Part shown: positions 1 to 19,452 of the stretch, one piece after another
Position numbering within the stretch: position 1 is the stretch's first letter
Layout: each line of letters starts with the position of its first letter
Origin: an uncultured Litoreibacter sp.
GTDB taxonomy: Bacteria; Pseudomonadota; Alphaproteobacteria; Rhodobacterales; Rhodobacteraceae
Direction: 5' to 3'
Length of the DNA stretch: 36,162 bases
NCBI GenBank assembly: GCA_938030665.1
Contig: CALHHY010000081.1
Coordinates: 1-36,162, forward strand
Notes under the pieces: generated by a model
Database searches by the model: none
What the model saw: the letters and a program-made list of their open reading frames with translations, nothing else
Told to the model about the DNA's origin: nothing
Position numbers and translations under genes: made by a program

Positions 1-195
1 CGAGGCCGACCATAACTGCCGAGACTGAGACGCGATTGTTCTTTGATGTGAGCCAGCGTGACCAGATCAGACCGCTGTCGGCGGCTGGCTGGGCGGCTGC
101 GGAATGCACGTAATCCACGTGTGCTGACCCCAACAACGCCACACAAGCGGTTGGTTGGGAAGTCGGCTATGTTCTTTGACAAACCTAAATCTCAT
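1..195 (-). pseudogene. IS3-family transposase OrfB, N-terminal part, frameshifted and cut by window edge
   Basis: OrfB is the DDE transposase subunit of IS3-family elements; only its N-terminal region lies in the window and the gene continues past base 1. The ATG at 195-193 overlaps the orfA stop in an ATGA arrangement, as in intact IS3 elements. The first nine codons read as expected (MRFRFVKEH). The family-like reading (DFPTNRLC, then RGLRAFRSRPASRR, then SRLSLGSYGRP) then continues in another frame from about base 170, so a small indel near 170-175 has broken the gene. The direct frame reaches a stop within about 40 codons. What is seen is the frame break; that the element was once active is inferred from the family. 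It is very unlikely to make a working transposase. Confidence 0.75.
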
Positions 196-218
196 TGCTT
201 TAGGCCCGCAAAGAACTG

Positions 219-259
219 CCCTCTCGGCAGATTACTACGTAATCGCCTGCCGGGTAATA
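219..259 (-). repeat. Palindromic mini-element, copy C (41 nt)
   Basis: Read on the minus strand it begins ATTACCCGGCAGG, forms a 9-bp hairpin with a GTA loop and one bulged T, and ends CCGAGAGGG. It aligns without gaps to the 41-nt copy at 418-458, with 12 differences. Six of these fall in three base pairs of the stem and keep the pairing. It interrupts the end of orfA between the codons for KKAT and the expected QFFAGLKQ tail. I do not recognise a named family. Confidence 0.75.
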
Positions 260-417
260 GGTGGCCTTTTTTAAGATTTCCCTCTCCTCCTTGAGAAGAC
301 GGTTCTCGCGTCGAAGCCGGTCATTCTCCTTGGCGAGGTCCAAATCCTCTTTCGATACCACATCCGTATCTCGATGTGCTGTGATCCATTTGTTCAGTGT
401 CGACATCCCGACGCCCA

Positions 418-458
418 CCTTCTCGGGACATTGCTGCGCAATGCCCTGTCAGGCAATG
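418..458 (-). repeat. Palindromic mini-element, copy A (41 nt)
   Basis: Read on the minus strand it begins CATTGCCTGACAGGG, has a stem with a GCA loop and one bulged T, and ends CCCGAGAAGG. The hexamer CATTGC occurs twice, at element positions 1-6 and 16-21, and its complement once at 25-30, so two alternative hairpins are possible. It splits the Asp-Asp-Leu codons of the orfA helix-turn-helix exactly, leaving no obvious target duplication. Confidence 0.75.
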
Positions 459-480
459 GATCATCAGCAACCTGCTTGCG

Positions 481-518
481 CCCCTCTCATCGAAACTGCG
501 TTTCGACTGCCAGGCAAT
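481..518 (-). repeat. Palindromic mini-element, copy B (38 nt)
   Basis: Read on the minus strand it begins ATTGCCTGGCAG, has a perfect 7-bp stem TCGAAAC/GTTTCGA around a GCA loop, and ends TGAGAGGGG. The outer arms and loop match copies A and C while the stem sequence is entirely different. It lies 22 bp from copy A, inside the same short helix-turn-helix coding stretch of orfA. Confidence 0.7.
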
Positions 519-689
519 GGTCAGCCCACTGGTTAACGCGATGCGCACCGCATCTTTGCGGAATTCGTCCGTCCGTTTCTGTCCCATAGTTAATCTCCTT
601 TGGTGCAGTAAATGCTGTCAAAGGAGCGGCATCAAACCGCGACAGGTCCAGATCAACTACGAAAGGACTGCCGCTGAGGGGCTGGAATC

Positions 690-780: not shown

Positions 781-1890
781 CTAACGAACAATAAACTCTG
801 CGTGCATTGCTCCCGCGGCCTTAATACTCTTTAGGATATCGATCATATCCAAAGGTGGCACTCCAAGCGCATTCAAGCCTTTAACAACTTCCGAAAGAGA
901 AGTGGCTTCAGGTACCTCTGCAAACCCATTTCCTATTTCCTGCTCAATTTGAATACTTGTCCTGGGTACAACGATAGTTTCCCCATCACTAAAGGGGCTT
1001 GGCTGAATGGCAATTGGACTTTCTTCAATCGTAAGAGTTAGATTCCCCTGGGCAACTGCAACAGGGGATATCGTTACACTATTCCCAAGAACGATCGTTC
1101 CAGATCTCTGATCGACTACTACTCGAGCTGCTGTTTGAGGTGAAACTGAGAGTTGCTCAATGGAGCTTAGGGCATGTGCAGGTGAAGTAGAATTTGATAG
1201 TTGAAGGTTCAAAATGACTGTACCTGAGTCAATCATTCTCGCTACCGTTGTCCTGTAGAACTCATTGATTACACGTTCAATTTGAGCGGCTGTTGAAAAA
1301 TCCGGATCCCTGAGAGCAAGAACAATTTCTGAAAGACTTGAGAGGTCGAAATCCACCTCTCTTTCGATACGTGCTCCTGAAACGATGGTTCCCGTTGTCG
1401 GTACCCCGTGGACGATACGGCCGGCATCACCGTCAGCAGAGATACCTCCGGCGATGATGGACCCTTGTGCTACCGCGTAGGTGTGGCCATCTGCGCCGCT
1501 TAAGGGTGTCATGATGAGCGTTCCGCCTAAGAGACTTTTTGCATCGCCTATAGCGGATACCGTCGCATCAAGGCGGCCGCCTGCCCTTGCAAATGGTGGG
1601 AGAACCGCGGTTACTATAACTGCCGCAACATTGCGTGGCCTGAATTGTTCGCCGGATACGTTTATGCCAAACCTCTCCAGAACGGACGACAGTAACTCTT
1701 CCGTGAAAGGCGAATTTCGAATACCGTCACCGGTTCCATCTAAGCCAACAACAAGCCCATATCCGACAAGATCATTTCCACGTACGCCGCCAAAATCAAC
1801 AAGATCTTTCAGACGAACTTCTGCTGATGATGCTGGGAAGCAAATCACCATAGCTATGGTGAACATCAGGCACAGATCACGTAAAATCAT
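781..1890 (-). CDS. flgI: Flagellar P-ring protein FlgI
   Basis: FlgI is the periplasmic protein that builds the P ring around the flagellar rod at the peptidoglycan layer. The 369-aa length is normal for the family. A Sec signal peptide is visible (hydrophobic core at residues 8-17, cleavage probably after PASSA near residue 23), followed by the typical start of the mature protein, EVRLKDLVDFGGVRGNDLVGYGLVVGLDGTGD in outline. The C-terminus (LGVPPLDMIDILKSIKAAGA, then MHAEFIVR) is intact. The ATG overlaps the flgL stop as ATGA, so the two are translationally coupled. The stop codon touches the IS-derived DNA at 780. GC content is clearly lower (about 48% in a sampled line) than in the rest of the window. 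Confidence 0.97.
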   Translation of the reverse strand: MILRDLCLMFTIAMVICFPASSAEVRLKDLVDFGGVRGNDLVGYGLVVGLDGTGDGIRNSPFTEELLSSVLERFGINVSGEQFRPRNVAAVIVTAVLPPFARAGGRLDATVSAIGDAKSLLGGTLIMTPLSGADGHTYAVAQGSIIAGGISADGDAGRIVHGVPTTGTIVSGARIEREVDFDLSSLSEIVLALRDPDFSTAAQIERVINEFYRTTVARMIDSGTVILNLQLSNSTSPAHALSSIEQLSVSPQTAARVVVDQRSGTIVLGNSVTISPVAVAQGNLTLTIEESPIAIQPSPFSDGETIVVPRTSIQIEQEIGNGFAEVPEATSLSEVVKGLNALGVPPLDMIDILKSIKAAGAMHAEFIVR

Positions 1891-2891
1891 CGTATGAAGT
1901 TTGCAAAATTTAATTGGGAGGTCTTAGAGATTACTAAGTAGTACCTCTCTAGTTGGCTTTGGATTTCTTCTAGGCGGGTGGCAGTAGAAAATAAATCAAC
2001 ATTACTAATCTCGTTTCTACTTTTTGATAAGAAATAAGAATCAGACTGGTTTTCCGCAACTGCTTCCTTTATGCGTCCTTGCTCTAAGCCAATTCCTGCG
2101 TGAAGCAAAGTTAAACTTTTTTGCGAAGCAATTAAGTTATGCGAGTTAGCTTCAATTATGAGCTCTTCTTGTGTGCGATCGCCCGGAAAAGTACCTTCTC
2201 CCACGAGCGAATAAACCGCCAGGTCTCGCAGAACGCTACGTATCGAACCGTTCGCTGCCGTGGTTCCTCCGGCGCTGGATACTGTTGAAGATAGCTTTAC
2301 TGATTCAGCCTTTATATCTCCCCCAGTATAGGCAATGGTATCAAAGCCTTCCCCCTCATCTAGAAAAAAGCTATCAACCACAGCCATGAACGTAGCTGCG
2401 TCTGAAATGCCGGCAACCTCAATACGTAAGGATTCGAGAATTTCTGCCGCATCCAACAGCGGTGGCGTAGTACTATTCTGACCAGAAAAAACGAACTGAC
2501 CTCCGACGCTTGTCTGAAGCGCTGTAACGACGTCAGAAAACTTCTGCGAACTGGCGTTAATGACTGGGGTTAGTACGCCTTCTCCACCAGATAGTCCAGC
2601 TATCGCTTGAGGTCCTAAGCCTTCTATTGAACTATTAATCTTTGTAAGTACGGTATCTATAACACTAAAATTTTGTTCTGCTTGGCGCGAATTTTCTTCG
2701 TAAGACGCAACTAGTCTAATCTTTCGATCAATTGAGGCTATAGCGCTATTGTTTCCTAGAAGAGAAGCCGAAATATCTGACTTTTTTCCTGTCCCCACCT
2801 CTGTGGTCAGTTGGATGAGTTCAGAACGAATATTACTATTCACTCGTTTAGCGATAATAGTCTGATGCAGATCACCAAGTGAAGTTATCAT
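1887..2891 (-). CDS. flgL: Flagellar hook-filament junction protein FlgL
   Basis: FlgL (HAP3) joins the hook to the filament together with FlgK and is exported by the flagellar type III apparatus. The 334-aa protein has the flagellin-like N-terminal helix region (residues 1-110, with SELIQLTTEVGTGKKSD) and a C-terminal helical region ending in LFSTATRLEEIQSQLERYY, which is how FlgL and flagellins polymerise. The middle is divergent, as is usual for the family. It starts 3 nt after the flgK stop and overlaps flgI by 4 nt. The base composition is striking: sampled lines are 35-38% GC, against about 63-67% in neighbouring operons, giving many A/T-ending codons. Confidence 0.92.
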   Translation of the reverse strand: MITSLGDLHQTIIAKRVNSNIRSELIQLTTEVGTGKKSDISASLLGNNSAIASIDRKIRLVASYEENSRQAEQNFSVIDTVLTKINSSIEGLGPQAIAGLSGGEGVLTPVINASSQKFSDVVTALQTSVGGQFVFSGQNSTTPPLLDAAEILESLRIEVAGISDAATFMAVVDSFFLDEGEGFDTIAYTGGDIKAESVKLSSTVSSAGGTTAANGSIRSVLRDLAVYSLVGEGTFPGDRTQEELIIEANSHNLIASQKSLTLLHAGIGLEQGRIKEAVAENQSDSYFLSKSRNEISNVDLFSTATRLEEIQSQLERYYLVISKTSQLNFANFIR

Positions 2892-2894
2892 GGC

Positions 2895-4340
2895 CTATAT
2901 CCTTAAGAGAGATTGAAGCATTTCGTCGATCGCTTCAATCAGTTTTGCATTGGCGGCATAGGATTGCTCGATCGCAAGCAGGTTCTGCAGTTCTTGATCA
3001 GTATCGACTCCGAAAACGCCTTCAGCTTCAAGCAGGCTGCCGATCTTGGCTTCATTGAAAGCCAGAGACGCTTCAGAAGATATTCTTGCTGAGGACAAGG
3101 ATGACGTAAGGCTCGTAGCGCTTGAAAAAATGGACATATCCGAGGCGGGAGTTCCGTCCGGTTCGGTTCCACTGAAGACATTAGTAAGCGAGGTTAGAAC
3201 ATCCTGAAACCCAACTGGCATAGGTGTAGTTGAATTTACTCCGTCGCGGATACGGGTGATGTCACCTCCCTTGTTAGGATCTACAGATGGATTGACTAAT
3301 ATGCGGCTCGCTAGACCTATCTCGTCAACGGGATCAAATGCGTTTCCCGCATCGGAGAATAGTCCGGGTCCAGTAGTTATTGATGAGTCTACTTGCGGAT
3401 CTGTGACAAGCTCGATGAGTTTAGCTGCAAAGCCATCCAGCTCCTGCTGAGTTTCCGGGCCTATGTGGTCTCGTATCATAAAGTTGGCATCAAGTGAACC
3501 ACCGGCGATCACATCGGATACGGAGCCTGCTGAGCTGGATGCACCTTCAAGGGTCAAGCCGGATAAGGCTCCACTTGCCAGTGTCATCTCGGAGGTGATG
3601 ATCGGTGTGGTCCGGAAAGAGAATTTTGCAGCACCATCGGCTACCAGCAGTGTTCCATTCGGGCTGGCGAGCGCGACACGACCAAACTCTTTGGGTATTT
3701 CTCTAATTGGAATGAGGTCACTGATGGCATCAATTTGTCTTTGGCGTTCATCCTGCAGTCCCGAGATGTTACCACCGGATACAGCGATAGCCTGGATCCT
3801 ATTGTTTAAATCATCGACTGCGGAGAGCGATGCGTTAATTGTGTCCACTTGGAACGAGATTTCTTGATCCGCTGCTTGCCGTTGTTTCTGAATTTCCCGC
3901 GAAGAAGAGTTTAGAGTGTCTGCAAGCTGATTGGCGGCACGCAGGACATTGGCTAACTGGATTTCATCAGAAGGATTGGCCGCTGCGCTAACGAGGCTTG
4001 CTTCCAAGTTTGTGAGGCGGCTGGTCAATGAGCCTTCGGAGGTTGGGTCGGCGAGCACACGTTCAATCGTTTGATAGAACCCTAGTTCTTTCTGGACGAA
4101 GCCAAGATCAGATTCAGATAACCTCCTGTCGTTGGTCACAGTGTGGTTCATGATCCGTTCAATGCTGGCAACGGTTACGCCACCACCCTGACCACCTACA
4201 GAACTTGATGCCAGCCGGATTTCGCGCCTGGCATATCCTTCGGTTAGCGCATTTGCGACGTTACTAGAAACCACCTCAGCGGATCGCGTTGCTGCGGTAA
4301 GGCCAGAGGTCGCATTGTTGAGGGCAGCAGATAAGCTCAT
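2895..4340 (-). CDS. flgK: Flagellar hook-associated protein 1 FlgK
   Basis: FlgK (HAP1) is the first junction protein placed on the finished hook. The N-terminus (SLSAALNNATSGLTAATRS, then VVSSNVANALTEGYARREI) is the conserved flagellar rod/hook signature, with the SNVANA motif near residue 25. The C-terminus (NLLAIEQSYAANAKLIEAI, then DEMLQSLLRI) is the matching hook-type helix. At 481 aa it is typical for Rhodobacterales. It follows flgE after 22 nt and precedes flgL by 3 nt, so flgE-flgK-flgL-flgI are probably one transcript. GC is intermediate between flgE and flgL. Confidence 0.95.
   Translation of the reverse strand: MSLSAALNNATSGLTAATRSAEVVSSNVANALTEGYARREIRLASSSVGGQGGGVTVASIERIMNHTVTNDRRLSESDLGFVQKELGFYQTIERVLADPTSEGSLTSRLTNLEASLVSAAANPSDEIQLANVLRAANQLADTLNSSSREIQKQRQAADQEISFQVDTINASLSAVDDLNNRIQAIAVSGGNISGLQDERQRQIDAISDLIPIREIPKEFGRVALASPNGTLLVADGAAKFSFRTTPIITSEMTLASGALSGLTLEGASSSAGSVSDVIAGGSLDANFMIRDHIGPETQQELDGFAAKLIELVTDPQVDSSITTGPGLFSDAGNAFDPVDEIGLASRILVNPSVDPNKGGDITRIRDGVNSTTPMPVGFQDVLTSLTNVFSGTEPDGTPASDMSIFSSATSLTSSLSSARISSEASLAFNEAKIGSLLEAEGVFGVDTDQELQNLLAIEQSYAANAKLIEAIDEMLQSLLRI

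Positions 4341-19375: not shown

Positions 19376-19452
<77 letters not shown>

Follow-up and report, generated by a model that had tools for sequence, protein, structure and literature searches.

Bacterial genomes commonly contain very small palindromic repeats. The palindromic elements of Rickettsia keep the reading frame. Cyanobacterial small dispersed repeats, which Elhai et al. are said to have described in 2008, are reportedly very small (21–27 nt) and mobile and show compensatory stem changes; their sequences and contexts are said to differ from those of the elements presented below. The closest described system is that of the CGTC-tagged REPs. In the sections of the source covered here, these are prevalent in alphaproteobacteria and have no known transposase (Di Nocera et al., 2013, PMC3733652). 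An unpaired CGTC (or TGTC, CCTC) tag is located at one end, the stem of 8–9 bp opens with complementary A-T positions, the loop measures 4–5, and the tail is CCA. The repeats are mostly intergenic and predominantly arranged as head-to-head dimers. For want of a known enzyme, the way in which very small CGTC-like palindromic repeats move was left open (PMC3733652, same sections).

The elements presented here are hairpins of 35–48 nt. With a probability of about two in three, they are non-autonomous mobile elements that occur nearly only in one alphaproteobacterial family, are moved as folded strands by an enzyme acting in trans and travel as passengers of insertion sequences (IS). A literature search covering few subscription journals found no description of this hairpin family among the papers listed. 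It is apparently undescribed and belongs to the very small palindromic mobile elements, outside any named family. Three copies interrupt one gene of the window, the whole stretch of 36,162 nt analyzed (contig CALHHY010000081.1, uncultured Litoreibacter sp.):

1..650, minus strand: left part of an IS3-family element that the contig end truncates; its terminal TGGACCTGTC lies at 650.
192..587, minus strand: IS3-family orfA with three interruptions; start codon 587–585, stop from the empty-site alignment.
482..519, minus strand: element A, 38 nt, class C-ATTG, in the LT^RKQ region of orfA (empty-site alignment with L164/L165; model E 2.3e-8).
418..458, minus strand: element B, 41 nt, class C-ATTG, in the helix-turn-helix of orfA (ADD^LGVG) (empty-site alignment; model E 1.5e-9).
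219..259, minus strand: element C, 41 nt, class T-ATTA, near the end of orfA (empty-site alignment; model E 3.9e-9).

The orfB of this IS starts at about 190 on the minus strand. Frames resembling the flagellar genes flgI, flgL and flgK (by eye) adjoin the truncated IS at 781–4340, minus strand. An IS3 on a plasmid, L164 (CP049030.1, 93.6% identical), lacks exactly 38 + 41 + 41 = 120 nt, and a second relative, L165, is also without elements A, B and C. The three segments proposed in the initial annotation are thus real and lie on the minus strand according to the empty-site alignment; its boundaries 481–518 were one position off the exact 482–519. Its proposal that removal of the segments restores orfA was confirmed by the normal reading obtained once the 120 nt are gapped against L164/L165. 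The absence of the segments from both relatives also contradicts the possibility, raised at the same time, that they are ordinary IS3 coding sequence. The genome has another, truncated copy of this IS on contig C19, which shares the insertion of element C and bears a fourth element of 35 nt in its orfB. The supposed common orientation holds for A, B and C and fails for this fourth element, which is reversed. Exact empty sites are available for all four elements of this IS. The covariance model was built from 42 copies, and the E values of A, B and C are flattering because their own sequences make up three of the 42 rows; the next-best match in the window has an E value of 0.047. Chance or ordinary coding sequence is ruled out by the empty-site alignment, the reversed-pattern control and the model scores. 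An Rfam scan of the window at the gathering score yielded a tRNA gene at 19376–19449 as the only match and none to the elements.

In element orientation, the plan is Y-ATT-R-CCC-GRCA-(variable stem-loop)-GAGA-GGG. CCC and GGG form an outer helix, GRCA and GAGA a constant internal loop, and the ATT arm is without partner. Deduplication reduced 193 hits to 157 unique sequences. Among 137 unique sequences, with relatedness ignored, covariation links base 1 to base 5 (C/G in 122, T/A in 10; p = 2e-13) and the third C of CCC to the first G of GGG (C-G in 114, T-A in 14; p = 3e-14). Neither of these two outermost pairings had been selected on. Element B has T...A as third outer pair and ends in GAGAAGG. 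The triplet after the first base varies too (ACT, GCC, GTT). The stem is paired at seven of seven positions in 124/136 copies, versus a mean of 5.40 of 7 with arms exchanged between elements; this high pairing is partly by construction, because copies with fewer than six stem pairs were left out of the stem statistics. Omission of the stem filter gave 13 hits lacking a hairpin among 162 folded pattern hits. In the 42-row alignment, 98.3% of the cells are paired; shuffles reach 80.1%, and sliding leaves no more than 46.6%. The covariation score is 0.545 versus 0.211 in shuffles. Sequence is conserved at the ends and in the internal loop; in the stem, it is mainly the pairing that is preserved.

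The insertion site is defined by empty relatives. Among the fetched loci, 42 of 140 unique strict copies have such a relative, several of them only ~70% identical, and 33 of the 42 show the same one-base offset. A target duplication was found neither at the four exact empty sites nor at the 33 with standard offset. The target reads approximately CRTC^G and amounts to 4.3 bits as a whole. CRTC is the commonest 5′ flank and belongs to the target sequence according to the empty sites, with an extra C or T between CRTC and ATT. In the ATTG class, the +1 base is G in 120/130 copies. The ATTA class has C at +1 and T at −1, each in 10/10. Many copies are located directly before an aspartate codon, as the motif reads C^GAY in gene-antisense orientation, and some of these aspartates are conserved or catalytic (by eye). 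Targeting of catalytic codons is suggestive by eye and is not claimed, since the formal test was weak: insertions near a catalytic residue occurred in 4 of 16 evaluable genes versus 1.30 expected (sd 1.08). In homologous transposases of ~70% identity, the same site sometimes holds elements with different stems, which points to independent insertions. Element pairs of opposite orientation were found near each other.

These properties define the relation to known elements. CGTC-tagged REPs share a hairpin of 20–40 bp, an occasional location inside genes, occurrence in alphaproteobacteria and the lack of a dedicated transposase, and their one-sided short unpaired tag resembles the CRTC target (PMC3733652, sections covered). 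Unlike theirs, the present stem combines an unpaired ATT arm, the outer CCC/GGG helix and a GAGAGGG end in place of the A-T start and CCA tail, and CRTC is part of the target, not of the element. REP/REPIN, too, combine a hairpin with an adjacent preferred tetranucleotide (PMC3733652, sections covered). RAYT-moved members of that group differ in having GTAG instead of CRTC as flank, and a Y1 gene was found in only 10 of 61 genomes positive for the element pattern. Unlike MITEs, the elements have no target-site duplication and no terminal inverted repeats; neither end is an inverted copy of the other. Yeast mitochondrial GC clusters such as GC42 are likewise palindromic units (42 nt) present or absent at homologous sites; in the sections of the source covered, they differ in AG or ACT repeats at the flanks, which resemble a target duplication, and in their mitochondrial, mostly intergenic location (PMC4478555). 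Rickettsia palindromic elements are palindromic insertions within alphaproteobacterial genes as well (PMC3733652, sections covered). In contrast to them, the window lineage contains elements of 38, 41, 41 and 35 nt, and the length is divisible by three in 27 of 137 unique elements.

The strict pattern occurs at 129 places in 61 of 295 sampled genomes of the family, about 11 of them without hairpin by eye and attributable to chance; the reversed control gave 1. The initial annotation had allowed for the segments having no copies elsewhere, which these places contradict. Together with the empty sites, the pattern scan bears out its suggestion of a mobile, frame-breaking palindromic unit, and further copies occur across Rhodobacterales. 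A narrower pattern, with G after the unit and ATTG, was present in 2 of 385 genomes sampled from the class (2/5 of the own family, 0/380 others). This pattern misses family genomes such as G055, so rare copies elsewhere are possible. In a scan of named genomes (80 of at least 120 matched stretches), hairpin copies were nearly confined to Rhodobacterales or unnamed alphaproteobacteria; among the matches listed, Cohaesibacter and Labrenzia also carry them. A plasmid search with a 43-base query matched 75 records, and the 60 listed are all from genera that we take to be Rhodobacterales. The covariance model (E ≤ 0.1) was run on six genomes with 150 candidates scored in each, and gave 61 matches in G007, 40 in G013, 35 in G245, 15 in G250, 7 in G171 and 6 in the genome of the window, weak matches possibly being due to chance. 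Phage records gave no match to one 43-base query. Ten stretches were obtained from a scan of viral contigs; L158, L160 and L161 contain hairpin copies, and the others look like chance. Plasmid pDSHI04 of Dinoroseobacter shibae (L178, L180) harbors the same element with its flanks at three places with no listed genes. A plasmid of Octadecabacter arcticus carries element copies. In the sections covered, the genome paper of this species reports many transposon-linked pseudogenes, and neither "palindrom" nor "hairpin" occurs in the corresponding main text (PMC3646047). Rhodobacter and Roseobacter are not mentioned in the covered part of the RepRanger paper (PMC12306157).

Host genes were sought in 40 loci drawn at random from 90 with a copy, of which 38 offered a frame on one side that could be tested. 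Pfam assigned 24 of the 38 sites to transposase-type families, two weakly to general helix-turn-helix proteins and one to RelE, and 11 were without match. In a control of 20 chance matches without hairpin, mostly from other taxa (22 less two with stretches <50 aa), no transposase was found and other families were hit in 15. Twenty further sites were chosen from model hits in G000, G171 and G007, and several of these represent copies of a single IS; they comprised eight transposases, one FAD synthetase (a weak, partial match) and 11 without match. Specifically named hosts were transposases in 32 of 34 cases, while 24 of 58 sites received no name or only a vague one. When 146 neighboring stretches were scanned as a pool, 37 families were matched; transposases or helix-turn-helix domains account for 23 of the 25 listed. 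The Pfam hosts comprise rve, DDE_Tnp_1 (IS4/IS5), IS240 (IS6), IS66, Transposase_20 (IS110), Transposase_mut (IS256), DDE_3, Y2_Tnp/IS91 and DUF772 transposases. The rve hosts are presumably of the IS3/IS481 type, and the IS family assignments of DDE_3 and DUF772 are likewise assumed. The earlier suggestion that the unit targets the IS lineage of the window was therefore too narrow, as transposases of many IS families serve as hosts by Pfam. This spectrum is unlike the mostly intergenic location of CGTC-tagged REPs (PMC3733652, sections covered). Among the 38 sites, the only clear Pfam host other than a transposase is a RelE-type gene in L044, next to the copy at about 1345–1385.

A second habitat is apparently intergenic. 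It comprises nine longer-stemmed copies in partly similar flanks from several genera (L010, L031, L057, L083, two in L086, L087, L104 and L189). The longer-stemmed element comes after GC-rich upstream sequence whose end lies near CATC, and before a hairpin similar to GGCTGGCGATTTGG, which is exact in three. This intergenic repeat was not seen without the element among the fetched loci. The bias toward transposase genes is most likely a combination of tolerance of insertion and hitchhiking.

The fate of interrupted IS was followed in G013. Six near-identical IS3 copies of 1385 bp on two contigs (L166, L169, L172, L174, L176) each carry four elements in orfB, two per orientation and 154 nt in total. 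Without the elements, orfB is an open frame of 287 codons. Both ends were read for three distinct copies, one of which has AAG on either side. No close intact IS3 copy was found in G013; longer open IS3-type frames are ~25–37% identical, and the more similar IS3 pieces are short, some with stops. Comparison of five of the six copies revealed 12 nonsynonymous against 3 synonymous changes, together with the loss of one orfA start codon. Element insertion thus looks fatal to the transposase, a view based on 15 coding changes in G013, and these copies were most likely moved by a transposase in trans that has since been lost. A ratio test addressed pairs with likely shared old insertions, 13 of 20 listed pairs being analyzed. 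L025/L108 looks relaxed and has stops, and L066/L110 looks relaxed. L058/L106 from Leisingera aquimarina, with a ratio of 0.10 and without stops, does not look dead.

Handling as a folded single strand would fit the exact ends, the preference for a 5′ target, the missing target duplication and the pairing of the 3′ end with CCC beside the 5′ arm. The folded strand would be the substrate of the mover, its two ends lying next to each other as for IS200/IS605-type elements and REPs. The enzyme would be supplied in trans. Interrupted IS copies would be moved by a related transposase, also in trans, and the elements may spread as their passengers. Neither coding capacity nor an autonomous form of the element was found. 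Of the two alternatives in the initial annotation, a mobile or self-copying unit, mobility is supported; self-copying is not, no coding capacity and no driver enzyme having been found. Y1 (PF01797) was detected in 10/61 pattern-positive and 20/234 negative genomes (p = 0.09), and Y2 (PF04986) in 11/61 and 17/234 (p = 0.024), a difference that the general IS load could explain. G007, the richest of the six model-scanned genomes, has both. Y1 and Y2 were rejected as required drivers, since each is absent from most positive genomes, Y2 being mildly associated. Searching 295 genomes with one exact 15-base 5′ end revealed no larger element that shares it. Of the 46 places obtained, 33 are whole strict-pattern elements, nine are whole elements with an altered 3′ end, one has the left end repeated inverted and three are chance. 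In the inverted case (L188, ~335, minus strand), the left end recurs inverted at the right end (CATTGCCCGGCAG...CTGCCGGGCAATG). This hints at snap-back copying; it is a single case and may be an assembly artefact.

Membership in the REP world, with an HUH transposase (Y1 or related) acting on single-stranded DNA and CRTC as cleavage tag like GTAG for RAYT-driven REPs, is conceivable, though rather unlikely. The hairpin between short unpaired arms, the preferred 5′ CRTC, the missing target duplication and the mild association with Y2 agree with it. Yet no Y1 match was obtained in 51 of 61 positive genomes, including G013, G245 and G250, which are rich in copies, and the elements prefer a +1 base, which Y1 targets are not known to require. 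The concentration of CGTC-tagged REPs in alphaproteobacteria fits, but stem and tail fall outside the definition of these repeats (PMC3733652, sections covered). In the part of a further source covered, alphaproteobacteria have no or few tnpAY1 genes, which also counts against such a driver (PMC6006769).

A defence-like or competitive process that puts hairpins into transposase genes and thereby silences IS would account for named hosts that are, with few exceptions, transposases from many unrelated IS families, for different elements at the same site of homologous transposases, and for several insertions directly before conserved or catalytic aspartates (by eye). It is judged improbable, given the weak excess near catalytic residues, a target motif of 4.3 bits, the apparently intergenic habitat and a search, for Y1 and Y2, that found no linked system. 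That interrupted transposases still work, with the elements made silent in the RNA (as mini-introns) or during translation (by ribosomal bypass), is very improbable. Ribosomal bypass has a precedent in the byps of Magnusiomyces, the four-element IS copies of G013 multiplied although no close intact copy was found there, and their orfB is one open frame with the elements left out. Insertion in both orientations within one gene and the 12:3 ratio of changes disfavor both mini-intron and bypass, and the lost start codon and the stops in L025/L108 add to this. Excision footprints of a larger transposon, finally, could combine two conserved ends with a variable middle; this origin is hardly credible in view of the whole elements or chance matches at the 46 places, the lack of target duplication and a stem that covaries as a unit. 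The passenger element moved in trans as a folded strand is the preferred reading.

Clean empty sites, a defined unit, two covarying target classes and named hosts such as Dinoroseobacter shibae make the question of movement testable. It is doubtful that dedicated machinery places this 40-nt hairpin in transposase genes of unrelated IS families, with the target base set by the first and fifth bases of the element (C^G for the C/G class, C^C for the T/A class). If true, the hairpins would be among the smallest mobile elements and, in effect, a natural IS inactivator in one bacterial family. In Rhodobacteraceae, the elements may explain some of the "frameshifted" transposases.
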